From a virus: 51,177 bases of DNA. Position numbers and translations under genes: made by a program. The notes below the pieces were generated by a model. The model saw only the letters and a program-made list of their open reading frames with translations, made no database searches and was not told the origin of the DNA. Numbering within the stretch: the stretch's first letter is position 1; each line of letters begins with the position of its first letter. Positions 5,146 to 48,417 of the stretch are shown piece by piece. The DNA lies in the IMG/VR virus record IMGVR_UViG_3300045282_000148, positions 1 through 51,177 of that record, one strand, 5' to 3'.

Positions 5146-6171
5146 TCACCAACTCTTGCTAAGGCCGCCGTCGGCCCCGTCACCGAGACATGACGACCAT
5201 GTACATCGTAGCGCGTCTTGGACATATGGAAACTCAAGCTGCAGGTCGTAGAACGTTGTCGCGCCGTTCGGGTTGATGGCGATTTTGAGTCCCATGATCT
5301 CGATTGCTGCGCGGCCAGCCGCGTCACCGCCTCCGCCACGATCCACGACTCCACAGATTCTCGGCGTCCACGAACTGTTCGCGTCTTGATCCGCTTGCGA
5401 GCGTCCCTTGAGATTCATTTCGCAATCGTAGAGCCTGACCGGGCCGCTGCGAGCAATCACACCGAAGCAGCCGCCGTTGGTTTGGTTGCTCGTCTCACCG
5501 CGAGAGTTCGACAACGAGGCGTCACCAAAGATTCGGCACCTCCGCAGCGTCACGTCTTGTCCGTTGCCGCTGTTCTCGGCAGCTACGCCTACTCGACCAG
5601 TTGTGATGTCGCAGTCTTCGAGAGTCAGTACATTGCCCTCAGACCAGCAATAGCACGTCCAATCGCGGCACCACAAATTGCAACGCCTAATGGTTGCGTT
5701 GAAAGGTCCAGGTGGTAGTCCGAAAGCTCCGTTGTCGAATCCGACGCAACGGCCGTCTTCGGCGAAATACCAGCAGTCGTTCTTGAGCGTCAAATCCTCA
5801 ACGACCGTGTTCTGCAACGCGAAGCTGCACCCGAGCGTGTCCGAGATAATCGAACTCGTCAGGATCGTTTTCTCGCGTCCCATGCCGCGAATCGTTACGT
5901 GATCCGGTAGGATGACGTGGCCGGCTGCATTAGGCCCGAAGTCGAACGTACCTAACCCGATCTTGAGCAGAGCACCCGGCGACACTCGCGGAAGTACGTA
6001 CTGCTGCACCATGTTGCCGAGTGATGCCGCTTTGCGATCGGTCGAATAGAAGCTGAGCGGCTGTTTCGCGCCCGGATTGTAAAGCAGCACGTCGCACGGC
6101 TGGCCGTATGGACCGATGATCGGCGGCGTGGGCGATGGATTGTACGGCGGGGGTTGTGGTCCGATGCTCAT
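5146..6171 (-). CDS. Right-handed beta-helix tail protein
   Basis: The 341-aa protein has a Pro-rich N-terminus (about residues 5-25), then repeated short beta-turn units such as VTIRGMG, VVEDLTLKND, ATIRRCNLW, LTLEDCDITTG and VTLRRCRIF. These are typical of the parallel beta-helix of pectate-lyase-like tailspikes. It is probably a receptor-binding or polysaccharide-degrading spike. Several Cys residues recur at equivalent coil positions. It follows the larger LamG/beta-helix protein with only an 11-base gap. Confidence 0.7.
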   Translation of the reverse strand: MSIGPQPPPYNPSPTPPIIGPYGQPCDVLLYNPGAKQPLSFYSTDRKAASLGNMVQQYVLPRVSPGALLKIGLGTFDFGPNAAGHVILPDHVTIRGMGREKTILTSSIISDTLGCSFALQNTVVEDLTLKNDCWYFAEDGRCVGFDNGAFGLPPGPFNATIRRCNLWCRDWTCYCWSEGNVLTLEDCDITTGRVGVAAENSGNGQDVTLRRCRIFGDASLSNSRGETSNQTNGGCFGVIARSGPVRLYDCEMNLKGRSQADQDANSSWTPRICGVVDRGGGGDAAGRAAIEIMGLKIAINPNGATTFYDLQLEFPYVQDALRCTWSSCLGDGADGGLSKSW

Positions 6172-17589: not shown

Positions 17590-19151
17590 TTCCCTGGCCC
17601 CATCAACTCCGCGCTCACGACGCGCTATTGTCCGCATTGACTGGAGGGATTAGCCCTGTCGCATTCACGTCGCCAACCGGCGGCGGCAAGTCCGAGATCA
17701 TGTTTCGCATGATTGAATGGGGGCTGGAGAACGGCCGCGAGTCGATCCTGTATACAAACCGAAAGTTTCTCTTGGAGCAAATGCAACGCGGTTTCCGGGA
17801 ACGTGGAATCGAATTCGGGACGCGAGCCAGCGGACATGAACCAGCGTTGTTAAAGCGAGTTCAACTCTCTTCGATTCAGACCGAAGCCAGCCGCGTCTAC
17901 GACCGCAAGGACTGGGAAATTCATCCCGCCGGGATCGTGTTCATCGACGAGGCACATACCCAAGGCGGCGCTATCGCGGCCCGTGTAGTCAAGGATCATT
18001 TGGCGCAAGGTGCTTTCGTCGTGCTCGTGACGGCCACACCGACAAATCTGGAAGTGTTCGAGCCGAAGCGGTTGATTGTCGCTGGCGTGACTTCCGAGCT
18101 GCGATCGTGCGGTGCGCTCGTGCCGTGCGACACCTACGGCCCGACGGAGCCGGATTGCTCGCTCATTGGCAAGAAAGCGATCGGCGAAGATTACTCGGAA
18201 AACGAACTCGCTAAGATCATCAAAGTCGATTCGATTTTTGGCCACGTCAGCAAGCATCTTCGCACACTCAATCCAGAACTCAGGCCAACAATCCTATTCG
18301 CCAGCAGCGTTGGCGCATCGCTCTACTTTGCCGAGCACCTATCGGCTAACGGAATTCGAGCGGCCCACGTTGACGGCGATGACATCTGGTTTGACGGCGA
18401 TACCTACAAGAGCGATCCGAAAGCCCGCGAAGATATTCTTGCAGGCAGCAAGTCCGGCGAGATCAAGGTAGTCTGCAACCGCTTCGTGCTCCGCGAGGCG
18501 ATCGACATGCCCTGGCTCGCGCATGGAATCATGGCCACGGTGTTCGGCTCGCTCACGTCCTATCTGCAAAGCGGTGGCCGATTGCTCCGCGCCTATCCCG
18601 GTCTCTCCCGCGTTATCCTCCAGGACCACGGCGGCAACTGGTGGCGTCACGGTTCGCTCAATGCGGATCGCGAGTGGGCAATCGGGTTGACAGACAAGCA
18701 AATGGCAATGGAGCGCGCGCGGAAGATTCGCGACAAGGAAGATCGCGAACCGATTCATTGTCCATTCTGCCATGCGATCCGCCTGAGCGGAGATGTCTGC
18801 CCGCGTTGCGGACGACGAGCCACAAAGAAAACGCGGTACGTTCTCCAGCACAACGGCACGTTGCGGGAAATGCACGGAGACATCTACCGCGAACGGACGG
18901 TTAAGCAAGAACCGGATACGGCGAGGAAATGGAAGGGCTGTGTCTTTCGAATCAAACACAAGGGCGGAAATTTCAATTCGGCCGTCGGGCTGTTCTACAA
19001 AGAGAACGGCTATTGGCCACCGAAAGACCTTCCATATATGCCACTCGATCCGCGTGATTTTCACAGACCGATCAAGTCGGTTCCGTACAGTGAATGCCAC
19101 CGAGAAAAACGCGAACCGGAAATATCTGATCCTCAGGAGACGTTTCTATGA
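17586..19151 (+). CDS. DEAD/DEAH-box SF2 helicase with C-terminal zinc ribbon
   Basis: The 521-aa protein shows the helicase motifs: Walker A SPTGGGKS (about residues 29-36), DEAH box FIDEAH, motif III TATPT, and motif VI QSGGRLLR. After the core is a zinc ribbon (HCPFCHAIRLSGDVCPRCGRR) at about residues 395-417. It unwinds or remodels DNA, probably at replication forks or recombination intermediates; it is similar to the phage UvsW/RecG-like group. It lies downstream of the ParB-like gene with ATGA overlap. Confidence 0.9.
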   Translation: MIPWPHQLRAHDALLSALTGGISPVAFTSPTGGGKSEIMFRMIEWGLENGRESILYTNRKFLLEQMQRGFRERGIEFGTRASGHEPALLKRVQLSSIQTEASRVYDRKDWEIHPAGIVFIDEAHTQGGAIAARVVKDHLAQGAFVVLVTATPTNLEVFEPKRLIVAGVTSELRSCGALVPCDTYGPTEPDCSLIGKKAIGEDYSENELAKIIKVDSIFGHVSKHLRTLNPELRPTILFASSVGASLYFAEHLSANGIRAAHVDGDDIWFDGDTYKSDPKAREDILAGSKSGEIKVVCNRFVLREAIDMPWLAHGIMATVFGSLTSYLQSGGRLLRAYPGLSRVILQDHGGNWWRHGSLNADREWAIGLTDKQMAMERARKIRDKEDREPIHCPFCHAIRLSGDVCPRCGRRATKKTRYVLQHNGTLREMHGDIYRERTVKQEPDTARKWKGCVFRIKHKGGNFNSAVGLFYKENGYWPPKDLPYMPLDPRDFHRPIKSVPYSECHREKREPEISDPQETFL

Positions 19152-19450
19152 AAATGGGAAAGATGACCGTTGCCGCTCACGACATAACGGATGAGCTACG
19201 GGACAGGACTCTCGAAACGATCACTCGCATGGCTGAGCAAGCCGGTGCGACCTTCGAGGAAGGAATCGACAAGATAGCTCTTTACCGCGAAGCGCTTGTT
19301 CTGATCGCTGTCGCGTGCCGACTGTACGCGGTTGCGGAAACGTCGCAAGACAAATGGGATGACTGGTCGCGTCCAGTTTGCGACCAGCTTAACGCGAGAC
19401 TGATCGACTACACCCAAGAGAAACGAGACGAGTCGCTCGAAGCGAATTGA
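19148..19450 (+). CDS. Hypothetical helical protein
   Basis: The 100-aa protein is charged and helical and shows no recognised domain (ETITRMAEQAGATFEEGIDKI; CRLYAVAETSQDKWDDW). It is coupled by a 4-base overlap to the helicase gene. A non-coding structured stretch follows its stop. Confidence 0.55.
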   Translation: MKMGKMTVAAHDITDELRDRTLETITRMAEQAGATFEEGIDKIALYREALVLIAVACRLYAVAETSQDKWDDWSRPVCDQLNARLIDYTQEKRDESLEAN

Positions 19451-19460
19451 GGACGACATA

Positions 19461-19565
19461 GCGGCCACGCCGCAACCGGCTAGGAAGGTTCCGAACGGAA
19501 TCGAGCTACCCCGCCGACTGTCGAGCGCGACAAGAGGGTAGCAGTCGCGTGGGAGGGAAACCCAC
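19461..19565 (+). ncRNA. Hairpin-rich intergenic region, possible structured RNA
   Basis: The 223-bp gap 19451-19673 has no gene. I see five local pairings: GCGGC/GCCGC (19461-19473); a stem GGTTCC/GGAATC with loop GAAC (19487-19502), outer-extended by GGCTAG/CTACCC; GCTACCC/GGGTAGC (19505-19511 with 19536-19542); TGTCG/CGACA with loop AGCG (19519-19532); and GTGGG/CCCAC (19549-19565). Some are mutually exclusive. It may be a cis-acting leader for 19674 or an independent RNA. No promoter was recognised. Confidence 0.4.
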
Positions 19566-19673: not shown

Positions 19674-20168
19674 ATGCCAGTACGACCTTTAACCACAACC
19701 GAGATTGAAGCGATACGGCGCGGCAAGCGTCTATCGAGCCTAGAGCGTCGGGCCCTAGCGACAATCGACAACCTACAAGCGCAACTGGCCGCTGCGAAAT
19801 ACGCCCCTGGAAGTGGGAATGGTGAAACGGCGTTTGCGGGACGCGAAAAGGTGCTGGCTGTGGTCGCGTGGGACGGATTCATAGAGGTGTACGCAGAGCC
19901 GTGGTGCGACGTGAAGGTGGTCGAATGTTGGCCGTGGGACGACGAGGACGAACTACGGCTGCCGGCTTGCTACGAGGGGTTGTACTACCCCGGAAAGCTA
20001 CGAGCGACGGCTCTGGCAAGGCTCAGACAGACTCCAAGGCTTCCTGAAATAGTGATGGCCTTCAGAGAACACGACGCGCGCATGGAAATGATCGAGCTAG
20101 TCAGAGAGAAGATCGCGGCTCTAACGAATGGAACCGATGAACCTGAGCAGCGAACCAACGGCGAGTGA
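19674..20168 (+). CDS. Hypothetical early protein
   Basis: The 164-aa protein has a basic helical N-terminus (TTEIEAIRRGKRLSSLERRA) and a Trp-rich acidic middle region (VECWPWDDEDELRLP), with ATALARLRQTPRLPEIV and a helical end. No family is recognised. It follows the structured gap 19451-19673. Confidence 0.55.
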   Translation: MPVRPLTTTEIEAIRRGKRLSSLERRALATIDNLQAQLAAAKYAPGSGNGETAFAGREKVLAVVAWDGFIEVYAEPWCDVKVVECWPWDDEDELRLPACYEGLYYPGKLRATALARLRQTPRLPEIVMAFREHDARMEMIELVREKIAALTNGTDEPEQRTNGE

Positions 20169-20192
20169 CCCCCGACTGACCACAGGTACCCC

Positions 20193-20399
20193 ATGAGCCG
20201 CACAGCCGCAACCGACCCTACTGACCTATGGGGAGCAGCCAGATTGGCCACCGATGAAATCCTTGAGGATTTGCTGGCTTGGCCGGATATAAGCGACGCT
20301 TGGGCGCGGATGGGAAATGGAGAGCGACATGCTGCGAGAAACAGCATCATGGCCCTAGTTTGGGAGCGATTGGACGACCTATGCAAAAGCATTCAGTGA
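20193..20399 (+). CDS. Hypothetical small acidic protein
   Basis: The 68-aa protein shows no recognised domain (WGAARLATDEILEDLLAWPD). It begins ATGAGCCGCACAGC, nearly the same bases as the start of the gene at 20615, which hints at a local duplication of the start region. Confidence 0.5.
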   Translation: MSRTAATDPTDLWGAARLATDEILEDLLAWPDISDAWARMGNGERHAARNSIMALVWERLDDLCKSIQ

Positions 20400-21672: not shown

Positions 21673-22311
21673 ATGAACTGGATTACTGACTCTCGCGGAA
21701 ATCGTGCCTCTGTCGAACGATGGGGCACGGAGGAAAAGGCAAAGGCGTCTCTTGAGACGTTGGATACCCGCTGCTACGGCTGCTCCGACTGCTCCGGCTG
21801 CTCCGGCTGCTCCGACTGCTCCGGCTGCTCCCGCTGCTACGGCTGCTACGGCTGCTACGGCTGCTCCGGCTGCTCCGACTGCTCCGGCTGCTCCGACTGC
21901 TCCGGCTGCTCCGACTGCTCCGGCTGCTACGGCTGCTCCCGCTGCTCCGGCTGCTACGGCTGCTACAGCTGCTCCGGCTGCTCCGGCTGCTACGACAAGA
22001 AAGAACAAAAGGACGCGCCGTTCTCTGTCCCCGTTATCGAGGACATCCATAAGAAAGTCTTAGAAGCGGCTTCCGTACCAGCGGCGCTCGATATGAGTTC
22101 GTTTCATGTCTGTGAGACAACGCATTGCCGCGCCGGCTGGGTCGTTCACTTGGCCGGTGAACCAGGCTACGCCTTGGAAAAGCAAACGTCGCCAATCTTC
22201 GCTGCCATGCAAATCTACAAGGCGAGCGGGTACGAAATCTCGCCAGTGAGGTTCTTCGATTCCAACGAAGCGGCGCTTGAGGACATGAGATCACTGGCAC
22301 TTGCGAAGTGA
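21673..22311 (+). CDS. Cys-triplet repeat protein with C-terminal HCRAGW domain
   Basis: The 212-aa product opens with a short domain (residues 1-33, NWITDSRGNRASVERWGTEE). Residues 34-108 are 25 perfect C-x-x triplets, mostly CSG, CSD and CYG, so 25 cysteines in 75 residues. The C-terminal domain (~120-212) contains FHVCETTHCRAGWVVHLAGE and RFFDSNEEA-like residues, a domain known from phages where it is usually paired with other repeats. The Cys array could bind metals or form a beta-solenoid; the function is unknown. The DNA is a 9-bp tandem repeat. Confidence 0.8.
   Translation: MNWITDSRGNRASVERWGTEEKAKASLETLDTRCYGCSDCSGCSGCSDCSGCSRCYGCYGCYGCSGCSDCSGCSDCSGCSDCSGCYGCSRCSGCYGCYSCSGCSGCYDKKEQKDAPFSVPVIEDIHKKVLEAASVPAALDMSSFHVCETTHCRAGWVVHLAGEPGYALEKQTSPIFAAMQIYKASGYEISPVRFFDSNEAALEDMRSLALAK
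21772..21996 (+). repeat. Imperfect 9-bp in-frame tandem repeat
   Basis: About 225 bp are built from TGCTCCGGC, TGCTCCGAC and TGCTACGGC units, coding the C-x-x triplets of the gene at 21673. All changes keep the TGC codon and the frame, so Cys spacing is under selection or recently expanded by slippage. Confidence 0.95.
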
Positions 22312-27714: not shown

Positions 27715-29397
27715 ATGCCACTCGACAAGACGCAGACGATTACCGTCTCGCTCTTTTTGCGGCCGATGACGCCCGTCGCGCCGCCGGTCGCTGGGGCGCC
27801 ACCAATGGACCCGGCTACGTTCGCCGCTCAGCATTCGGCTGACCCAGCGGACATCGACGCCATTCGTGCGTTTGCGAATGACAAAGGTCTGCAAGTCGTT
27901 GGCGTTCACCCGATCCAGAGAATCGTGAACGTCTCTGGGACGATCGAACAGCTCGAAGCTGCTTTCGGGGCCGATACAGAGCAGCGGCCGACCGCGAATG
28001 GCGAACACCGCTTTTTGGCTAGAGCAGCGCAGCCGATGCCGCACTTGGGCATCGTCAAGACGTTGGGATGGGAGTCGGCGCCGTTTGCGCAGCCGCACTT
28101 TCGCAGACGACGAAAGCACCCCACCGCAGCAGCCGTAGCCGTCGAACCGCACGCCATGAAGCCGCTTGGGCCGGTCAAGACGGCTCAAATGTACGGCGTC
28201 ACAACTCGGCCGGCGGGAACCTACCGGACCTGCCACGGCTCGATCCTCTGTCTTGGCGGCGGCTATACGTCTTCGGACGTAGCCGCAAGCTGCCAACTCA
28301 ACGGTATCCCGGTTCCGACAATCATTGATGAATCGGTCCTAGGGGCCGGCAATGCCCCTGGAAACGACGCCGACGTGGAGTTGATGCTGGATATCGTTCA
28401 GATGGCCGGGGCTTACTTCGCTCGCACTGGGCAGCATATGACGATCCACGTCATTTTCTGTCCGAACACCGATGCAGGTTACGTCACCGGGAGCGGCTAC
28501 GGAGCGCATATTACGAACGTGGCGACGGAATCAAGCTCATGGGGCAGTTCCGAGGATAATTGGGCACAATCGGCTGGCCAGTTTGATTCGACGGCCAAAG
28601 GCTCAGTTACGCTCGGCGTCACGTATGTCGCAGCCTCGGGCGACGGTGGGGCGACAGACGGCACCGGTGGCCTGATTGTCGACTTCCCGGCGGCATCGCC
28701 CTACGTTCTCGGCATGGGCGGTACGAACCTATCGGACGCTGGCGAAGTAGTCTGGAACGATCCGCAAGGCGGTTCCGGCGGCGGCGGTATCTCTGGCGTC
28801 GAGACTCCGAAGCCGCCTTGGCAAAGCGACTACCCGACGGCTGGTGGTCGGTGTGTGCCTGATCTGGCGGCGAACTCAGCCCCGGCTACTTGTGGGACAA
28901 TCGTCGTACAAGGTCAACACATGGACATCGGCGGAACAAGCGCCGCCGCTCCGTTTATGGCTGGTATCCTATGTGCCCTGTGCGAGGAACTGCCGCACAA
29001 CATCGGGTATCTCAATCCTCTTTTGGAGACAATGCCGGCGACGTGCTTTGAGGACATTATCAAGGGCGATAATGGAGGTTTTAGCGCGAAGCCCGGTCCG
29101 GATATGTGTACCGGCCGCGGCAGCCCGAAACCGCTGGCGATGCTCGCGGCCTTGAAAGGCACGGCACCGCCTCCCGTCATTCCACCGCCGGTAACTCCTC
29201 CGCCCGTGACGCCCCCGCCCCCGATTACACCGCCGCCGACCGACATGACGGTCGCGCAGTTCCAAGCCAATCTCCGCGCGAGTGCCCGCCGAAAATTCAC
29301 AGCGGACCTCAAAACCGAGAGCCATTTAGAGCGCTGGTCGAATGCCTATTACGCGCTGTTTACAGACAACCTAATCGCGTCCGAGCCGATCGCATGA
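27715..29397 (+). CDS. Sedolisin-family serine-carboxyl peptidase (MEROPS S53)
   Basis: The 560-aa protein begins with a pro-kumamolisin-like activation domain (residues ~5-125; TITVSLFLRPM; VSGTIEQLEAAFG). The catalytic domain keeps the family's set: E222 and D226 (VELMLD), D253 (PNTDAGY) and S409 in GGTSAAAP. TGRGSP near the end matches the calcium-site region. A Pro-rich linker (about 480-505, PPVTPPP) joins a ~50-aa C-terminal helical domain. S53 peptidases are acid endopeptidases, usually secreted; no signal peptide is visible here. It sits beside spanin-like genes and could degrade host envelope protein. Confidence 0.9.
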   Translation: MPLDKTQTITVSLFLRPMTPVAPPVAGAPPMDPATFAAQHSADPADIDAIRAFANDKGLQVVGVHPIQRIVNVSGTIEQLEAAFGADTEQRPTANGEHRFLARAAQPMPHLGIVKTLGWESAPFAQPHFRRRRKHPTAAAVAVEPHAMKPLGPVKTAQMYGVTTRPAGTYRTCHGSILCLGGGYTSSDVAASCQLNGIPVPTIIDESVLGAGNAPGNDADVELMLDIVQMAGAYFARTGQHMTIHVIFCPNTDAGYVTGSGYGAHITNVATESSSWGSSEDNWAQSAGQFDSTAKGSVTLGVTYVAASGDGGATDGTGGLIVDFPAASPYVLGMGGTNLSDAGEVVWNDPQGGSGGGGISGVETPKPPWQSDYPTAGGRCVPDLAANSAPATCGTIVVQGQHMDIGGTSAAAPFMAGILCALCEELPHNIGYLNPLLETMPATCFEDIIKGDNGGFSAKPGPDMCTGRGSPKPLAMLAALKGTAPPPVIPPPVTPPPVTPPPPITPPPTDMTVAQFQANLRASARRKFTADLKTESHLERWSNAYYALFTDNLIASEPIA

Positions 29398-32573: not shown

Positions 32574-33205
32574 AGCGCTGCATCGCAATCGTCGCTATGG
32601 TCTGCGGCATGGTCCCCCAGCAGCTTGACGCCGGCTGCCGCGTGGCCGTGGGACAGACATTCAACACGGGCTTCGCCTATACGACGGCATTCGTTCCGGC
32701 GGGAATCGGCGTTGCGGCGGTGGCACCCTATCAGTACGCCTACAATCCGCCGCCTACTGTCAATGTGGTCGTAGACACGAACTCGATTGCGTCCGCGGTT
32801 GTCCAGCAACTAACGTCTCAAATGAACGCCGTTAATCAGCCTTCAGCACGAGCGGCGCAGCCAGCAGATAGACCACCGCCGCCCGTTCCTGGACCAGCCG
32901 CAAATCAGCCAGCACAACCAGGGCCAGCAGCTAACGGGCCGCCGCAAGCGGACGTGTTCGCAGAGACCGGAGAATTCGCCAAATGCGTCCAATGCCATTC
33001 GCCGACCGGCAAGAAGAAAAGTGCGTTCGCCAAGCTTGATTTGAGCGCCGTTACAACGCTAGCGTCACTAGCGCCCGATAAGCGGCTATTGGTCATCGAC
33101 AGAATTACAAGCGACGATCCGGCAGCGATGATGCCGCCTCCGGGAGAGCCGAGACTGTCGCCGGAAGAACTCGGAAGTTTGATCCACAGGTTAAGTCACA
33201 AATGA
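32570..33205 (+). CDS. Secreted mono-haem cytochrome c-like protein
   Basis: The 211-aa protein has a signal peptide (residues 2-20, KRCIAIVAMVCGMV), a Pro/Ala-rich linker (about 92-130), then a cytochrome-c domain. C139-V-Q-C142-H143 is the haem site, and M187 or M188 in AMMPPPG is the probable second axial ligand. Its class fits planctomycete-type mono-haem cytochromes. Phage-encoded c-type cytochromes are extremely rare. It could affect periplasmic electron flow in the infected host. Confidence 0.8.
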   Translation: MKRCIAIVAMVCGMVPQQLDAGCRVAVGQTFNTGFAYTTAFVPAGIGVAAVAPYQYAYNPPPTVNVVVDTNSIASAVVQQLTSQMNAVNQPSARAAQPADRPPPPVPGPAANQPAQPGPAANGPPQADVFAETGEFAKCVQCHSPTGKKKSAFAKLDLSAVTTLASLAPDKRLLVIDRITSDDPAAMMPPPGEPRLSPEELGSLIHRLSHK

Positions 33206-33262
33206 AACAAGCCTGCCGTTGAAGCGACAGGCTCTAACCACTGAAATCGAAAGGGGATTCCA

Positions 33263-33820
33263 ATGGCTGCCGTGATTGTAGCGGAAGGCGTCGAAGCGAG
33301 GGAGATAGAGGGATTTCCAGGTTACGCCGTATCGGCAGATGGAGTCGTATGGTCACACCGAACCCGCTATGGAGAGCCTTGTGACTCATGGAGACCTAAA
33401 AAAACGCGACCTGATAGGATCGGATATGCCTCAGTCGGCTTATACAGGAATGGAAGGGAACTCACGAGAAGGATTCATTCCCTCGTAATGAATGCGTGGA
33501 TCGGCCCTAGGCCAGATGGTCAAGAAGTGTGCCATGGGAATGGCGACAGAATGGATTGCCGGTTGTCAAATCTGCGTTATGACACTCATTTGGCAAATGA
33601 GGCAGATAAAAAACGAATGGGCAGGGGATGCGAGGGCGAGAACCATCCAATGGCAAAACTAAATGCTCAATTGGTTGCCGATTTCAGAAGGAGGATTGCG
33701 AGTGGTGAAGCGACCAGAAAGCAATTGGCCATAGAATCCGGCTTTGCATATAAAACGATATGCGGCGCCGTGGCCGGAAGGCGTTGGAAATGTGTATCTG
33801 AGGAAATGATCGGACCTTAA
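33263..33820 (+). CDS. NUMOD4/HNH homing endonuclease
   Basis: The 185-aa protein begins with a NUMOD4 motif (EIEGFPGYAVSADGVVWS), then an HNH domain: IHSLVMNAWIG, VCHGNGDRMDCRLSNLRYDT, and ANEADKK with a NUMOD-like tail (GENHPMAKL; TRKQLAIESGFAYKTI). It is a site-specific homing nuclease that sits between two genes for secreted proteins. A small hairpin (AGCCTG/CAGGCT) precedes it. Confidence 0.9.
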   Translation: MAAVIVAEGVEAREIEGFPGYAVSADGVVWSHRTRYGEPCDSWRPKKTRPDRIGYASVGLYRNGRELTRRIHSLVMNAWIGPRPDGQEVCHGNGDRMDCRLSNLRYDTHLANEADKKRMGRGCEGENHPMAKLNAQLVADFRRRIASGEATRKQLAIESGFAYKTICGAVAGRRWKCVSEEMIGP

Positions 33821-33834
33821 CTAAGGAGAATCAA

Positions 33835-34317
33835 ATGATTCGTCACTTGCTACATCGGTTGTTCCATCGTCGGTGTATTGTCGCGTTTGCGCTCGTCGCG
33901 CTCTCGGCGTCTGCACTCCAAGCCTGCCCGGTGCAGGTTGGGGCTGTGATCGCCCAGCCAGCTTTCGTGGGAGGTTATTCACAGGGCTTTCAGAGTGTCG
34001 CTACGGTTGCCACCGCTGCGCCTTGTGCGTGTGCGACTCAGCAGGCCGCTGCGGTCGTCGCGCCGCAAGCGGTCGAGTCCTATGCCGCTCCGCAAGTCGT
34101 CCAGAGCTACGCTCAGCCGCTCGTAGTGGCTCAGCCCTTGGCGGTTGCGGTGCCGTTCTACTCGTTTAGCGCGTTCGCAACCCCGTTCTACGGCTATGCG
34201 TCAAACAACGTGTTCGTCGGTAGCAGTCGTGGTCGGTTCTTCGGCGGTCGGCAGGTCTCGCGGCAGCGTGTCGCTGTGACAACCACGCGGACGAGGACCG
34301 TTATACGAGGACGTTAA
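33835..34317 (+). CDS. Secreted low-complexity protein
   Basis: The 160-aa protein has a signal peptide or N-terminal anchor (residues ~14-30, CIVAFALVALSASALQA) followed by Ala/Val/Gln-rich repeats (QAVESYAAPQVVQSYAQPL) and an Arg-rich end. Such AQ/VP-rich exported proteins are common in planctomycetes. Unknown role; it could be a surface or envelope-modifying protein. A strong terminator follows. Confidence 0.6.
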   Translation: MIRHLLHRLFHRRCIVAFALVALSASALQACPVQVGAVIAQPAFVGGYSQGFQSVATVATAAPCACATQQAAAVVAPQAVESYAAPQVVQSYAQPLVVAQPLAVAVPFYSFSAFATPFYGYASNNVFVGSSRGRFFGGRQVSRQRVAVTTTRTRTVIRGR

Positions 34318-34351
34318 CCGTAATGCCGTTCTCCTGGACGGCACTACGTTG

Positions 34352-34389
34352 GCCGGTCGCCGGGTTTCACTCCTCGGCGACCGGCTTTT
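34352..34389 (+). terminator. Strong rho-independent terminator
   Basis: A perfect 11-bp stem (GCCGGTCGCCG, 34352-34362, with CGGCGACCGGC, 34375-34385) is followed by TTTT. It ends the secreted-protein operon. Confidence 0.9.
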
Positions 34390-34399
34390 GATGAATCGC

Positions 34400-34836
34400 G
34401 TTCGCTGAGCTTGTAGTTCAGCAACCCATCGGCCGCTGTAAGCCGCGGCGGGTGACTCGGCGGCCGATGCTTTGATAAAGCTCATCTGCCATGTGTAGAA
34501 GGAGTAACGAGGTCCGTCCGATAAGGGGCGCCCTCAGATGATCGTGCGGCGGGGACAGTGACCCGTATGACGAGGCAAAGCACAGAGGAGCGTTGACTGT
34601 AAGTCGGATACGATTCGGCGCGGGCGTCTTGGATACTCCGACCTCTGGATGTTCAATCACTCGGCCTCCGACGCGGCAACCCGCAAAGCCGCAGGTAGAA
34701 ATAGGTGCAAAGCCGGTGCAATTCCGGCCACGATCATTAAACCGGCACGGCAGGGAATGCCGTGAAGGGATTGCGGAGAAGAATGGCATGGAGGCGTCGG
34801 TCGTCCGCGGTGGGCGTGTCGGCCGACGCCAATTTT
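34400..34836 (+). ncRNA. Candidate long structured non-coding RNA
   Basis: No gene is present here. Long-range pairings are dense: TGAGCTT/AAGCTCA (34406-34412 with 34478-34484), enclosing a perfect 10-bp stem CATCGGCCGC/GCGGCCGATG (34427-34436 with 34460-34469); ATGATCGTG/CACGATCAT (34538-34546 with 34729-34737), enclosing a GCCGG/CCGGC arm with a T-loop-like TGCAATT; CACGGCA/TGCCGTG (34746-34764); and a terminator-like GGCGTCGG/CCGACGCC + AATTTT (34793-34836). It lies directly upstream of a tRNA-like element. The size and setting resemble giant phage RNAs such as GOLLD or ROOL, but no specific match is claimed. Confidence 0.5.
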
Positions 34837-34838
34837 GA

Positions 34839-34922
34839 GTCTGGCTAGTGTACGGAGCACGTTGCGAACAGGGCCTTGTAACCGTATTCGCGAAAGACGT
34901 GGTTCAATTCCACGGCCTGACA
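34839..34922 (+). tRNA. tRNA-like cloverleaf with oversized anticodon arm
   Basis: A canonical T-arm is present: CGTGG, loop TTCAATT, CCACG (34898-34914). A 7-bp acceptor with one T-T mismatch (GTCTGGC 34839-34845 with GCCTGAC 34915-34921), TA at positions 8-9 and a D-like arm (GTG..CAC with GG in the loop, 34848-34860) also fit. The anticodon arm is abnormal: GCGAA/TTCGC (34864-34868 with 34887-34891) closes an 18-nt loop containing CTTGTAA. It may be a mutated tRNA (Thr-TGT?) or a tRNA-like 3' domain of the upstream RNA. No CCA is encoded. Confidence 0.45.
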
Positions 34923-34934
34923 ATGGAGGCAGTC

Positions 34935-35168
34935 ATGGATGCACTTGCAAACCTCGAAGTGTGGAGAACCGGAGGAGACGGCCGAGATTTCGAACTACGG
35001 TCAGGGTTCGCCGATGCGCGACTCGCCACGATCACGCTTAACGACGACACCGGCCGGCACGTTCGGTTAAACGAAATGGACCTTCACGGCGGCAACCGAA
35101 TCAGCGGATTGGACCGGCTCGTAAATGCGGCGATAAACGAATGGAACATGACGATTAAGTCGCGGTGA
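34935..35168 (+). CDS. Hypothetical protein
   Basis: The 77-aa protein starts at the ATG at 34935, with GGAGG 5 bases upstream, rather than at the ATG at 34923 or farther, because those would run into the tRNA-like element. It reads ANLEVWRTGGDGRDF, then RLATITLNDDTGRHVRLNE. No family is recognised. Confidence 0.55.
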   Translation: MDALANLEVWRTGGDGRDFELRSGFADARLATITLNDDTGRHVRLNEMDLHGGNRISGLDRLVNAAINEWNMTIKSR

Positions 35169-35175
35169 ATGGCAA

Positions 35176-35427
35176 ATGATCCTTTTTGCCTTCGAAGTGA
35201 GTATCGAGCTGGGCGCAATCGCCGTATTTGCGGTTTCAACGATTGTGATTATCGTCTGGCGGTCGGCAATCATCGTGACGAAACAAGATATTATGATCGA
35301 ATGGAGTCGGAAAATCGACTCGTGGAGGGAATCGAAAGACGAGACGATAGTTGACCACGGGCAGCGGATTCGCGCCTTAGAAGTGACAAAGTGCACGCAT
35401 GGAACCGACCGACAAACTGGCCGATAA
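35176..35427 (+). CDS. Small membrane protein
   Basis: The 83-aa protein has a hydrophobic N-terminal helix (residues ~10-33, LGAIAVFAVSTIVIIVW) and a charged helical tail. It overlaps the next gene by 29 bases in another frame. Unknown; possibly part of an envelope or lysis set. Confidence 0.55.
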   Translation: MILFAFEVSIELGAIAVFAVSTIVIIVWRSAIIVTKQDIMIEWSRKIDSWRESKDETIVDHGQRIRALEVTKCTHGTDRQTGR

Positions 35428-35716
35428 GTTCAAGGTGCCATTGAAACGGCAACTCGGCGCCCTCGGTTGGGCGATGCTACTTTCGACCGTCGCTATCGGA
35501 TTCTTTCTGTACGTCGAAGTGAGTAATCGCAGGCAATCGGACGAGATCATTCAACAGCAAGAGGACGAGACTGCGAGGCGGTTGAACCATATTGAAGATC
35601 AGCTGCAGGAAACCCGAAACGAATGGGTCGATAAGATCAACCGCAAGCATCCCGAATTAAAGCTCCCGCACTTCGATCCTCCCCCGAAAATTACGCCAGA
35701 AGAACCGTTGAAATGA
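35399..35716 (+). CDS. Membrane anchor plus coiled coil
   Basis: The 105-aa protein has a membrane span at residues ~22-42 (LGWAMLLSTVAIGFFLYV), coiled coil to ~80 (RRQSDEIIQQQEDETARRL), and a Pro-rich C-terminus. The layout resembles an inner-membrane spanin or an envelope tether. Unknown function. Confidence 0.5.
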   Translation: MEPTDKLADKFKVPLKRQLGALGWAMLLSTVAIGFFLYVEVSNRRQSDEIIQQQEDETARRLNHIEDQLQETRNEWVDKINRKHPELKLPHFDPPPKITPEEPLK

Positions 35717-35719
35717 GTA

Positions 35720-36007
35720 ATGGACCCCACCGCTACCTGGACGATGATTGGCGCGGCGGGGTTGATAGTATCCTTGGTCTTCACGGCGATTTGGAGGGCA
35801 TCGGCAGCAAACTTGAAGATCGACATCCTTCGTGAGGACGTAACGGAATTGAAACGACGGATGACTAAGAAAGAGGATGAAATCATCGAGCTATCGAAGG
35901 AGACGGCCGTATTGCAAGCGTTTGCTGAGGGTGTTCGGTCCGTCGAGCGGGAAAGAACAGAGTTAGTCAGGCGAGAGAAGTCAGACCACAACAATGACAG
36001 AAGGTAG
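35720..36007 (+). CDS. Membrane anchor plus coiled coil
   Basis: The 95-aa protein starts with a hydrophobic helix (residues ~6-28, WTMIGAAGLIVSLVFTAI) then a charged coiled coil to the end. It is a second spanin-like architecture in tandem with the preceding gene. Function unknown. Confidence 0.5.
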   Translation: MDPTATWTMIGAAGLIVSLVFTAIWRASAANLKIDILREDVTELKRRMTKKEDEIIELSKETAVLQAFAEGVRSVERERTELVRREKSDHNNDRR

Positions 36008-36018
36008 GGGCAGATGAG

Positions 36019-36579
36019 ATGTCGGAAGCAGCGAATATTCGCGGAGGGACAGCAAATGAAAGAGGCCCCGGCGCATCGCAATTAAATCCGGACCCGACTG
36101 AAAGGACTTTGGATCAATCACGGCGAGAAATCGCCATGCTGCGGGAGCTGATTGAATCCAAGCTACATGGCAACGAGGAAGTATCACGAATTGTCAAGGA
36201 ATTCAACGGGGCGGTTGTCAGCCATGTTCGCGTCGAGCTTGGCGGCCTGAAAGAGTTAGAGGAAGAAAAGTTCAAGGGGATCAATGCCCAGTTCTCTCAG
36301 CGAGACATCGCGTTGACAGCCGCGCTTCAGGCGCAAAAGGAATCGGCCGCAGCTCAGCAAGTGGCAAACTCGGAAGCGATTGCCAAGAGCGAAGGGGCCA
36401 CGACGAAACAGATGGACGGCCTGAGCGACAAGATTGACGACTTGAAAGAACGGCTGACAGCAGTGGAAGGCAGTAAGCAAGGCTCATTGGGGGCGACAAC
36501 GACCGCAATAGCGGCTATCGCGGCGGTTGGGATTATTTTGGCGGTTGCGGTGGACATCGTAATTCATTTTGTTAAGTGA
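36019..36579 (+). CDS. Phage helical protein with C-terminal membrane span
   Basis: The 186-aa protein has a conserved central block KGINAQFSQRDIALTAALQA and AIAKSEGATTKQMDGL, recognised as a phage family often placed near tail or lysis genes. Long helices precede a C-terminal membrane segment (residues ~160-183, AIAAIAAVGIILAVAVDIVI). Possible holin-like or envelope protein; its role is unproven. Confidence 0.6.
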   Translation: MSEAANIRGGTANERGPGASQLNPDPTERTLDQSRREIAMLRELIESKLHGNEEVSRIVKEFNGAVVSHVRVELGGLKELEEEKFKGINAQFSQRDIALTAALQAQKESAAAQQVANSEAIAKSEGATTKQMDGLSDKIDDLKERLTAVEGSKQGSLGATTTAIAAIAAVGIILAVAVDIVIHFVK

Positions 36580-41999: not shown

Positions 42000-42083
42000 G
42001 AACAATCGAACCTCGGGCCGGCGTCCATAACGCCGCCAATTCATTCGAGTCTCAATCGGGAGTAGCTACCCGATGACATGAGG

Positions 42084-42152
42084 CTCAACACTCCGACTCG
42101 TTGAGAGGTCGGCGGAATGTCCGCACGGCCTCTTTTTCTTTTACAGTCGGAG
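42084..42152 (+). promoter_or_regulatory. Possible ribosome-site-hiding leader fold
   Basis: CTCAAC/GTTGAG (42084-42105) forms a hairpin whose loop CTCCGACT (42091-42098) is complementary over 8 bp to AGTCGGAG (42145-42152). The latter contains GGAG, the ribosome site of the gene at 42160. This repeats on a small scale the loop-to-downstream pairing of leaders A-C. Confidence 0.35.
42104..42142 (+). terminator. Intrinsic terminator inside the head operon
   Basis: A 12-bp stem with one bulged A (42104-42115 with 42121-42133) has loop AATGT and is followed by TTTTTCTTTT. It lies between the protease/scaffold gene and the gene at 42160, so downstream genes need read-through or another promoter. 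The 160-bp gap 42000-42159 has no gene. Confidence 0.8.
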
Positions 42153-42159
42153 CAGTTTC

Positions 42160-43002: not shown

Positions 43003-44421
43003 ATGCCAACCTTCCGAGAAAAGGACATTGAACAGCTCGTCACTAAGTGCGAATACGAGCGCATCATAAGCGGCGACCCGCGACCAGCCGCGGAAATCGC
43101 TTGTGCCAGAATCAGCGAGCAGCTCGGTAGCGGCGAACTAAGCTGGACGGATTTACCTCCTGTTTCTCGAATTGCGCGGTATCTCGTTCGCGACAAGGCG
43201 ACAGGGCGACCGCTGGCGATTCAGGATTCCAAAGTCTCTTCCGATATGGTGTATCTAAAGAACATCGGGGAATCCTACGATGATCTTTCCAGGCGGTATC
43301 GTAATCCAGAAACGGGACTGATCGACGGATTTGTCAGTGAGCAAACGTCGCAACTCATCAAAGAGGAATCGACCTCGACGGCCACGACGATGGGCAGTTT
43401 CATGGCCCTCACGTCGCAACTGTTTTTCAATGCCCTCATCGGCGCTTACGAGCACGCTGAGATGAACGTCGCCCGTACGTTCCGCAATATCCCCTCGACG
43501 TTCCTGCGTGGCGAGAAGTTCGCTGGCGTCGGTGGCCTGGAAAAGATTCTCCAAGGCACGCCCGAGGGCCGAGATCTTCCGCACTTGACCGCGACCGAAG
43601 ATTACGTCGATACCCCGGCGCAACGCAAGGTCGGTGCGATCATCGACATCTCTTGGGAATTGTCGGTCAGTGACCATTCCGGCGAGATTCTCCGACGTTA
43701 CGAATCGCTCGGCAAGGCCGTAGCCGTCACCCGTGAAATGGAAGCCGTCGGCACCTTGACCGACACCAACCCGAACGACGGAACCGCCGGATACAAGCGT
43801 ACCCGCTACAACTGGAAGGGCACGCAATACGCGACTTACGAAAGCGCGGCCGGAACGGATTGGATCAATCTCCTCACCAGTTCGTCCAGTTCGACCTATT
43901 GGGGCGCCAACCCGCTGGTTGACCAGAACAGCATCAACGGCGCCTATGTCACGGCCACTAAGATTTGCGATCCGTGGACCGGACTGCCGATCGGCTACGG
44001 TCAAGGGCCGTGGAAATTGTTTTGCTCGCCTGATCTGAAGTTCACCGCTGATCGAATTGCTCGAACCGTCGAATACGTCACCGTCGGCGGAACGGCAGCG
44101 ACAACGAACTACGCCCCGCAACTGCATACCAATATCGGGACGGTCATTCCGTTCGAGGTCATCGCCTCGGCCTATATCGGCGCCTTGTGCGATCTCGCGG
44201 CCGCGGCCAGCAATACGAACATCCTCCGCACGACCTGGTGGATCGGCAAGCCGGAAGAGGCGTTCTCGTGGCAGACCGCGCAGGAGTTGGTCAATCAGGA
44301 GGCCATTCCCGGCGCCGGGGATATGTTTAACAGAGTTCTTGAGAAACAAACCAGGTGTTTCGACTGCAAGACCGCGTATGTGTTAAACCCAAGATACGTT
44401 ATACAGTGTATGGCTTCTTGA
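43003..44421 (+). CDS. Major capsid protein
   Basis: The 472-aa size, position after the protease/scaffold and composition fit an HK97-fold major capsid protein. The N-terminal ~120 residues are helical, like a delta or scaffold-interacting domain. Later come FFNALIGAYEHAEMNVARTF and the IDISWELSVSDHSGEIL and FEVIASAYIGALC regions, typical of capsid axial domains. The last residues (FDCKTAYVLNPRYVIQCMAS) include two Cys. Its stop overlaps by 23 bases the end of the inserted HNH gene. Confidence 0.75.
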   Translation: MPTFREKDIEQLVTKCEYERIISGDPRPAAEIACARISEQLGSGELSWTDLPPVSRIARYLVRDKATGRPLAIQDSKVSSDMVYLKNIGESYDDLSRRYRNPETGLIDGFVSEQTSQLIKEESTSTATTMGSFMALTSQLFFNALIGAYEHAEMNVARTFRNIPSTFLRGEKFAGVGGLEKILQGTPEGRDLPHLTATEDYVDTPAQRKVGAIIDISWELSVSDHSGEILRRYESLGKAVAVTREMEAVGTLTDTNPNDGTAGYKRTRYNWKGTQYATYESAAGTDWINLLTSSSSSTYWGANPLVDQNSINGAYVTATKICDPWTGLPIGYGQGPWKLFCSPDLKFTADRIARTVEYVTVGGTAATTNYAPQLHTNIGTVIPFEVIASAYIGALCDLAAAASNTNILRTTWWIGKPEEAFSWQTAQELVNQEAIPGAGDMFNRVLEKQTRCFDCKTAYVLNPRYVIQCMAS

Positions 44422-45040
44422 CCATAACAGGTATCGTCAAAGCCTTTTCTGTAGTCCATCCACGTTGCAGTCGCATTGAGATTGTGTACTGACTGATGCC
44501 GAGTTTTTCAGCCCATTCTACGATGCAAAGAGTCTCGCCGTTGAATGTCAATTTCGTGTTGCTTCGTCTATTGCGTTGCTGGTGTTTGTAGTCCGTCCAG
44601 CGGCAATTGCCAGGTTCGTAGTTCCGTTCATTGTCAATTCGATCAAGCATTAGGCCATCTGGGCAAAGGCCCATATCGGCCAAAAAGTTCTCAAACGAGT
44701 TCCTCCATCGGTCGCAAACGACAATCCCGCGGCCGCCATAGTCAGCATGATTTTTGTGATCGAGATCGTAGCAACGAAGTTTCATGTTGGTCCATGCACG
44801 ATGAGTGCGAGTGTGGGATAAGCCGTGAGTTTTGTGAGCACAGCTATTGCAGGCACTAGCTCCGTTGCGAAGATTCCAAGACCGAGTGACGATTAGATTT
44901 CCACATTTGCACTGACAACGAAAATGTTTTTGCCCGGACGGAGCTAGGAAAACCTCGACAACCTTAAGCAATCCGAATTCATCGCCTACGGAAACGAGTA
45001 GACGACAAGGACGACCAGGTTTACGCTGTTCTTCAGACAT
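44399..45040 (-). CDS. HNH endonuclease 1 (with zinc-ribbon N-terminus)
   Basis: In the 213-aa protein, residues ~38-68 form a zinc ribbon (CQCKCGN ... CNSCAHK). The HNH block follows: YGGRGIVVCDRW, FLADMGLCPDGLMLDRIDNE, NYEPGNCRWTD and NRRSNTKLTF. The second ATG (45040) is preferred because GGAGG stands 5 bases away; the first ATG is only 2 bases from it. It is inserted leftward between the capsid gene and 45121. It has an extended -10 and hairpin leader. It may be a homing endonuclease acting on neighbouring capsid DNA. Confidence 0.9.
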   Translation of the reverse strand: MSEEQRKPGRPCRLLVSVGDEFGLLKVVEVFLAPSGQKHFRCQCKCGNLIVTRSWNLRNGASACNSCAHKTHGLSHTRTHRAWTNMKLRCYDLDHKNHADYGGRGIVVCDRWRNSFENFLADMGLCPDGLMLDRIDNERNYEPGNCRWTDYKHQQRNRRSNTKLTFNGETLCIVEWAEKLGISQYTISMRLQRGWTTEKALTIPVMVKKPYTV

Positions 45041-45070
45041 CATGACCTCCGAGAAAGGTTGTGAAGTTTA

Positions 45071-45109
45071 GAGCAGCCGGACGCCAATCCGGCTGTTCGC
45101 ATTATAACA
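45071..45109 (-). promoter_or_regulatory. HNH1 extended -10 promoter and hairpin leader
   Basis: On the minus strand, TGTTATAAT (extended -10, 45109-45101) is followed directly by an 11-bp hairpin (45071-45098, loop TTGGCG), then TAAACTTC and the SD of HNH1. The hairpin begins a few bases after the -10 box, so it is the mRNA's 5' end. The same unit, with nearly identical stem bases, is at 46893-46931. Confidence 0.75.
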
Positions 45110-45120
45110 GAGTCTGTTAA

Positions 45121-46247: not shown

Positions 46248-46862
46248 TTACTTGCGTTTCATTTGGCGAGGCGGCTGTGTCAATGCTCTTTCGACCGACC
46301 ATCCCAATTTAAATAGCCGATCCCAAATCCCCTGATATGACATCCCGCAGATTTTTGCCCATCCGTAGAGATCATGAACTTCGCCGCGAAATTCGATTTT
46401 GGATTCATACTTCCCCGTAGGGACCGTCAGTGCTCTTTCAATTGACCAGCCGTAATCGCACAACCGTGTACTGAGCGTTTTTTGAGAAATGCCGAGTATT
46501 TCAGACCACTTAGCAAGACAATGAATCTGTCCCTGAAATTCGATCATCCGATTGCTGCGGCGATTCCGGCCTTGCTGCTTGCGCGTAGCCCAAATGCAAT
46601 TTTGCGGCTCATATCCTCGGTCATTGTCTTTGCGCTCCAGAGTCATTTGGGGCGGCGGCTGGCCCATATCGGCAAGGAAGTTTGGAAACGACATCCAACG
46701 CTCGCAGACCGTAATTCCGCGTCCACCATACGATTTCCATTGATGGGAATCTGGATTCGTACAGCGTTGGAGCATGGCGCACCAGATAACGTGGATTCGC
46801 GTTTTGGTCAATCCGTGGTAGTGCCGACGATAGGGTCGTATGGTACGATCAATCTTAGACAT
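46248..46862 (-). CDS. HNH endonuclease 2
   Basis: The 204-aa protein has the same core as HNH1: YGGRGITVCERW, FLADMGQPPPQMTLERKDND, and GYEPQNCIWATRKQQGRN. Two C-terminal repeats (EILGISQKTLSTRL; KICGMSYQGIWDRL) look like NUMOD-type DNA-binding modules. ATG 46862 is preferred since GGAGG sits 5 bases before it, whereas the ATG at 46874 has the SD inside the coding region. It is a homing-type nuclease on the minus strand. Confidence 0.9.
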   Translation of the reverse strand: MSKIDRTIRPYRRHYHGLTKTRIHVIWCAMLQRCTNPDSHQWKSYGGRGITVCERWMSFPNFLADMGQPPPQMTLERKDNDRGYEPQNCIWATRKQQGRNRRSNRMIEFQGQIHCLAKWSEILGISQKTLSTRLCDYGWSIERALTVPTGKYESKIEFRGEVHDLYGWAKICGMSYQGIWDRLFKLGWSVERALTQPPRQMKRK

Positions 46863-46892
46863 CGTGACCTCCATTCAGGTTTCGATCGTTTA

Positions 46893-46931
46893 GAGCAGCC
46901 CGGCGCCTACCGGGCTGCTCGCATTATAGCA
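46893..46931 (-). promoter_or_regulatory. HNH2 extended -10 promoter and hairpin leader
   Basis: On the minus strand, TGCTATAAT (46931-46923) precedes an 11-bp hairpin (46893-46920; GAGCAGCCCGG with CCGGGCTGCTC). The GAGCAGCC/GGCTGCTC stem and its spacing to the -10 box match the HNH1 leader. Confidence 0.75.
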
Positions 46932-46940
46932 GAATTTTAG

Positions 46941-47588: not shown

Positions 47589-48014
47589 ATGCCCAGTACC
47601 GCAGACCCCATACTGGCTTCGCTTGCCTCAACTTTTACAGGGCTGGGCTATACCGTTAAAACGGCCACCGAGCCGAAGGTGATGGAATGGGACGCGGCAT
47701 TGCCGCTGACTAGGATATGCCCAGTTACGAGACCCACGATCGAATGGCATGCTTTCCAGCATCGAAATGTTCTCCAACGCTATCAGGTCGTTTATGTCCA
47801 AGCCAATAATTTAGACCCGACTGTCGACGTAAATGCGAATCAATTCAAGCTGGATTTGATTAACAATTTTCAGGGACCAAATACAGCACTGGCGGCGGTT
47901 GCGGGGGTATGGAATTCAATCGTGAGCGATGACGTGGATTACGACAGGTCGCTATTACCTCAAGGCTACAACTATACAACGGCTATTGTCGAGGTCTCAT
48001 GGATTGAGTCGTGA
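47589..48014 (+). CDS. Putative tail terminator protein
   Basis: The 141-aa protein has a helical N-terminus (ILASLASTFTGLGYTVKT), then a beta region and YTTAIVEVSWIES at the end. Size, order and pattern match tail-terminator (gpU-like) proteins. It overlaps by 32 bases the convergent HNH3 gene. Confidence 0.6.
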   Translation: MPSTADPILASLASTFTGLGYTVKTATEPKVMEWDAALPLTRICPVTRPTIEWHAFQHRNVLQRYQVVYVQANNLDPTVDVNANQFKLDLINNFQGPNTALAAVAGVWNSIVSDDVDYDRSLLPQGYNYTTAIVEVSWIES

Positions 48015-48417
48015 GAATCCGCTCTATCGACCATCCATAATTCAACCGCGAGCGAATTATGCTATGATGGATGCCTGTGATTTTCGACCATTCAGAAACG
48101 GTTCGACGTATTCCTTGATATTCAAGCACCCGATTATGTCTCGTGTTGTTCATTTGCTCGGTTTTTGTGCGCCAATAGCAATTGTCGGGACTATAGCCGC
48201 GGTCATTATTTATCCGGTCCAACTCTAATCCCTTTGGACGTTTACCCATATCCTCCAAAAAATTCTCGAATTTGAGCCATCGTTTACAGACAGTAATTCC
48301 GCGACCGCCGTAATCATAGAAACGAGGATGTCGAGGTCTCAGACAGCGTCCAATCATGCTGTTCCAACAATCGTATTCTGGCGTTTTGCTCAAACCATGT
48401 GTTGTATTTCCGTTCAT
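47983..48417 (-). CDS. HNH endonuclease 3
   Basis: The 144-aa product is the shortest of the three relatives: THGLSKTPEYDCWNSMIGR, YGGRGITVCKRW, MGKRPKGLELDRINNDRGY and NCYWRTKTEQMNNTRHNR. It has one C-terminal NUMOD-like helix. SD GGAGG stands 6 bases before the ATG. It is inserted leftward between tail-terminator and decoration-like genes. Confidence 0.9.
   Translation of the reverse strand: MNGNTTHGLSKTPEYDCWNSMIGRCLRPRHPRFYDYGGRGITVCKRWLKFENFLEDMGKRPKGLELDRINNDRGYSPDNCYWRTKTEQMNNTRHNRVLEYQGIRRTVSEWSKITGIHHSIIRSRLNYGWSIERILTTQSMRPRQ

Follow-up and report, generated by a model that had tools for sequence, protein, structure and literature searches.

The intercistronic region at positions 34400-34836 of a 51,177-base phage genome carries two conserved hairpin modules, A and B, on the + strand, and their place and order are kept in both phages that have them. 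The block is genuine and for the most part lacks coding capacity on this strand, yet a single giant RNA fold does not describe it. Positions refer to the window, by which we mean the whole record IMGVR_UViG_3300045282_000148. The record carries a direct terminal repeat of 127 bp, given which the genome is probably complete, and capsid, terminase and portal genes were recognized in it. Because one encoded protein has a planctomycete-cytochrome domain, the host is probably a planctomycete bacterium. The genes neighboring the RNA region run in the + direction. The upstream gene (33835-34317) encodes a small Ala/Val/Gln-rich protein with a signal-like N-terminus and has the same position in the relative described below, and the downstream gene (34935-35168) encodes a protein of 77 aa. 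An HNH endonuclease gene lies two genes upstream of the RNA (33263-33820) and has a 38% identical homolog elsewhere in the relative. A group I intron was rejected, given that there was no Rfam match and that both flanking genes are intact units.

The ~440 bp had been described as gene-free in a sequence-only reading, and this was confirmed, with no coding-like frame in ~34350-34640 and none that is convincing from there to the end of the block. On the + strand, 34400-34836 has a more stable fold than 100 of 100 dinucleotide shuffles (z -2.67), and the - strand shows no excess over shuffles (z -0.74). In a genome-wide folding scan, the windows starting at 34351 and 34276 rank 3rd and 4th among 681. 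The strongest 150-nt excess of the genome is in the intergenic stretch 42000-42159 (42001, z -5.64), which holds two hairpins and a U-rich tail. Within the block the excess is confined to the ends (34387-34482, z -2.66; 34738-34838, z -4.74), while the middle (34483-34737) folds no better than shuffled sequence (z -0.15). The idea of a structured RNA thus holds for the two end modules and fails for the intervening 258 nt.

The same reading had based its case on several perfect long-range pairings of 7-10 bp. Their number is at chance level, with six of at least 7 bp at a distance of 50 nt or more compared to 4.1 in shuffles, and as many in 41 of 200 shuffles. The pairing said to span ~190 nt is present (34538-34546 with 34729-34737, the single perfect pairing of at least 9 bp), but it is equalled in 47 of 200 shuffles. 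For the block as a whole, the pairing energy of the + strand exceeds that of shuffled sequence; the number of long-range perfect pairings does not. The likeness to giant phage RNAs did not survive either, since the middle has no folding excess, is unconserved and gives way to a protein gene in the sole relative; this corrects an interpretation that the long-range pairings alone would have backed. It was right, in turn, that the block matches none of the giant phage RNAs: no Rfam family, GOLLD, ROOL and HEARO included, matches it at the gathering threshold in a search of the whole window, and the GOLLD, ROOL and HEARO models, which had been proposed as a check, gave no match over 33800-35300 even at E values up to 10.

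One distant relative, IMGVR_UViG_3300045257_000102, was found through a search with the subtilase. This protease (27715-29397) is of the subtilase/kumamolisin-like type, carries a pro-kumamolisin domain and is 78% identical in the two otherwise diverged phages. Common to both is the gene order secreted protein, terminator hairpin, A, B and small protein; the relative has an extra small gene between the terminator hairpin and A. The hairpin after the secreted-protein gene, T (34352-34389, +), is intrinsic-terminator-like, with 11 perfect pairs (34352-34385) and then UUUU, as had been claimed for the left flank. Its U tail extends into module A, and it is kept in the relative at 19093-19171 (73% identical, with a lower BLAST score than A). 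Module A (~93 nt, 34387-34479, +) consists of a conserved single-stranded UUUGAUGAAUCGCGUU, hairpin A1 (34404-34422), the long hairpin A2 (34427-34469) and a conserved tail, CUUUGAUAAA. Its homolog at 19383-19474 is ~77-78% identical (BLAST, E 3e-12) and folds with z -4.39, compared to -2.66 in the window. Module B (~100 nt, 34738-34837, +) comprises UAAACCGG, hairpin B1 (34746-34764), a purine-rich joint and hairpin B2 (34793-34830), whose loop CGCGGUGGGC is invariant, followed by the tail AAUUUUG. B2 is the terminator-like stem correctly noted on the right; terminator-like sites in the region number four, with 3.5 expected. The homolog of B (19869-19970) is ~73% identical, again with a lower BLAST score than A, and z is -4.74 in the window and -4.15 in the relative. 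A U-rich tail comes after the hairpins of each of A, B and T. Both modules are better conserved between the two phages than the small downstream protein gene, whose homolog at 19984-20262 is 32% identical, and the other conserved DNA stretches that were inspected lie in or at genes.

The two copies of B show the compensatory changes of a conserved structured RNA. Of the 20 pairs that can be read in both phages, every one is standard and seven are changed on both sides (5/7 in B1, 2/12 in B2), with none broken, in an alignment whose gaps were placed by hand under guidance of the hairpins (N at gaps) and which leans towards structure. Sliding the partners by 1-3 columns left 20-40% paired, compared to 100% in the true register. 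In A, one pair is changed on both sides in A1 and none in A2, which is conserved mainly by sequence. Over both phages, hairpins A1, A2, B1 and B2 contain 66 Watson-Crick, eight G-U and no A-C pairs on the + strand. The presence of G-U pairs and lack of A-C pairs indicates that it is the + strand RNA that folds and is under selection.

The variable middle, or cargo, of ~258 nt (34480-34737, +) is non-coding in the window; read as coding sequence, it gave no supportive codon signal and no Pfam match. It is not conserved in the relative, which has a 123-aa gene with a good ribosome site in its place. The middle contains the 9-bp closing helix and a T-arm-like hairpin at 34712-34728, and could be imagined as a degenerate tRNA-like or tmRNA-like RNA, with a closing helix of 7-9 bp, D-arm-like and T-arm-like hairpins and a long insertion. 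We give this very little credence. The helix 34538-34546/34729-34737 does directly abut the T-arm-like hairpin, but such a match occurs in 26 of 60 shuffled genomes and is not significant genome-wide, the fold has a z of only -0.98, no tRNA or tmRNA match was obtained at gathering thresholds or in a permissive scan of the region, and the sequence is not conserved.

In the relative, a direct repeat matching at 15 of 17 positions (GATAAACCGGCACGCGC / GATAAACCGGGCCGCGC) lies at both borders of the gene between A and B. We infer from this one genome that A formerly adjoined B directly and that the gene arrived with a duplicated junction. With the inter-module gene flanked in this way, A and B look like what are possibly halves of one ~190-nt bipartite RNA with an exchangeable linker cargo. 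Joined without the middle, the ~190 nt fold with z -4.84 (window) and -5.02 (relative), and the RNAalifold consensus for this joint sequence adds a helix that bridges the cargo site, formed by the terminal CUUUG of A and by CGGAG in B. This helix is invariant, and covariation neither supports nor refutes it. A possible kissing pair, AUCGCG/CGCGGU, is likewise invariant in both phages and has an estimated chance probability of about 15%. What speaks against one bipartite RNA is that, between two sequences, neither A2 nor any A-B pairing shows covariation. The comparison suggests that the A-B junction is a site of cargo exchange, occupied by a gene in one phage and by 258 non-coding nt in the other. 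A minority reading, which we regard as fairly unlikely, is an undescribed bipartite phage RNA with two conserved domains that assemble across a cargo site; the site would accept a protein gene or else a non-coding insert, possibly shaped like a tRNA, and if this is true a single RNA fold keeps working despite changes of insert. Different cargo between the same two elements and direct repeats around the cargo in the relative would also suit DNA elements, such as recombination, cassette-exchange or replication hairpins. This is quite improbable, given that G-U pairs number eight and A-C pairs zero on the + strand, a pattern that RNA and not DNA hairpins would require, that the folding excess is strand-specific, and that each genome has a single copy of A and of B.

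A tRNA-like element directly 3´ of B (34839-34922, +) was found by ARAGORN at a lowered threshold only. It has an acceptor stem with 6/7 pairs, a perfect T-arm with a canonical loop (CGUGG-UUCAAUU-CCACG) stacked on the acceptor stem, a D-like arm and an over-long anticodon-like arm. As a tRNA, it was missed by the RF00005 model at E values up to 10 and was not called by standard ARAGORN. That such an element adjoins the block had been noted before and was upheld, with one match in the window compared to a mean of 0.05 in shuffled genomes (3 of 60 hold one), figures that are optimistic as the search pattern was written after the element had been seen. According to the alignment, the element is absent after B in the relative. 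A-middle-B could be a single, discrete ncRNA of the phage, ~450 nt long and acting in trans, whose ends are conserved and whose linker is free to vary, perhaps released by RNase P cleavage at the downstream tRNA-like element. The kept order of A and B, the possible A-B pairing across the linker, the position of the tRNA-like element and the tRNAs sometimes held in GOLLD linkers (PMC12286853) are consistent with such an RNA. We nevertheless consider it unlikely, since the middle shows no more folding than its shuffles and, in the relative, encodes a protein behind a good ribosome site, since the relative also lacks the tRNA-like element after B, and since a scan for sigma-70-type promoters found no promoter-like site in 33000-36500.

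We tentatively favor, at a little under an even chance, that A and B are a cis-acting intercistronic element of the + strand phage mRNA. They would be two domains of an RNA that folds within the mRNA between two cistrons, formerly adjoining as ~190 nt, with cargo exchanged at the junction. The folded block with its U-rich tails may set the extent of RNA polymerase readthrough or the site of transcript cleavage, and the downstream small genes would thereby be adjusted relative to the upstream gene. Of the 21 pairs of B, the seven changed on both sides with none broken argue for a cis-acting element, together with conservation and synteny in the relative, the joint fold of A and B, the co-directional neighboring genes and the U-rich tails. 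Against it, neither the tail of A (CUUUGAUAAA) nor that of B (AAUUUUG) makes a good terminator, and no gene directly follows A in the window, which is odd for control of the next gene. The latter observation also weighs on the proposal that the modules are unrelated to each other and that each serves as a 5´ leader riboregulator (riboswitch-like or translational) of the gene after it. In the relative, A ends ~25 nt before the start of the 123-aa gene and B ~14 nt before the next start codon, and homologous small genes lie downstream of B in both phages, in keeping with leaders. However, the following genes encode small unknown proteins without metabolic logic and the duplicated junction in the relative argues for once-contiguous modules, and we judge separate leaders to be improbable.

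The A/B family has two known members, both phages. Among known phages and plasmids there was no DNA match to the RNA region, and three proteins of the phage had no match among known phages. Protein-led searches for further related phages returned the known relative and one 5.7-kb fragment without A or B. Pattern scans of viral contigs for A and B recovered the one relative, and all their other matches lay inside genes and were chance; a pattern scan of genome contigs for A gave none, and the strong scores of model R1 were limited to the two known copies of A. Three weak R1/R3 matches (21.7-23 bits) in 392 planctomycete-phylum genomes were judged from their alignments to be chance, and in a planctomycete genome with a subtilase homolog, at a locus that looked chromosomal, R1 did not find A. 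The modules represent a structured RNA that is new and has no name, from phages whose host group is poorly sampled, and compensatory changes between two diverged genomes support it. They also exemplify how RNA domains can persist when the intervening sequence is swapped for a gene.

Several other features of the genome were recorded. Two 46-nt hairpin repeats (45066-45111 and 46888-46933), 85% identical, whose reverse complement opens with a TATAAT-like box, lie just upstream of the - strand genes 44399-45043 and 46248-46874; these genes and the - strand gene 47983-48417 all match one same G001 gene region. An array of 9-bp tandem repeats with GCTGCTNCG units (21735-22040) lies within ORF 21673-22311. 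The 341-aa protein encoded at 5146-6171, without a family match, is 67-70% identical in two other viral contigs and is the best conserved outside the subtilase.

With respect to known RNAs, a two-hairpin stretch just upstream of the block (34295-34392) weakly resembles the atoC RNA (RF01733) and was rejected as a member (24.2 bits compared to a gathering threshold of 50, E 0.15). GOLLD and ROOL are giant phage RNAs that form homo-oligomeric cages and are often found near tRNAs. Like them, the A/B region is phage-borne, structured and non-coding, with a tRNA-like neighbor and a variable linker between conserved parts. It differs in that the conserved structure of A and B amounts to ~190 nt, compared to several hundred in GOLLD and ROOL, and is interrupted by an unstructured middle (z -0.15) that is a gene in the relative; in addition, A and B have no covariance match and do not lie beside a tRNA island. 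Many GOLLD RNAs exceed 800 nt, and their linkers sometimes hold tRNAs (PMC12286853). A and B have no known sequence relation to the hairpins of other phages discussed here, and processing or antitermination by them is only putative. Phage intercistronic hairpins include the RNase III sites of T7 and the put antiterminator RNA of HK022, and A and B would resemble these, by analogy, as compact hairpin pairs between co-directional cistrons.
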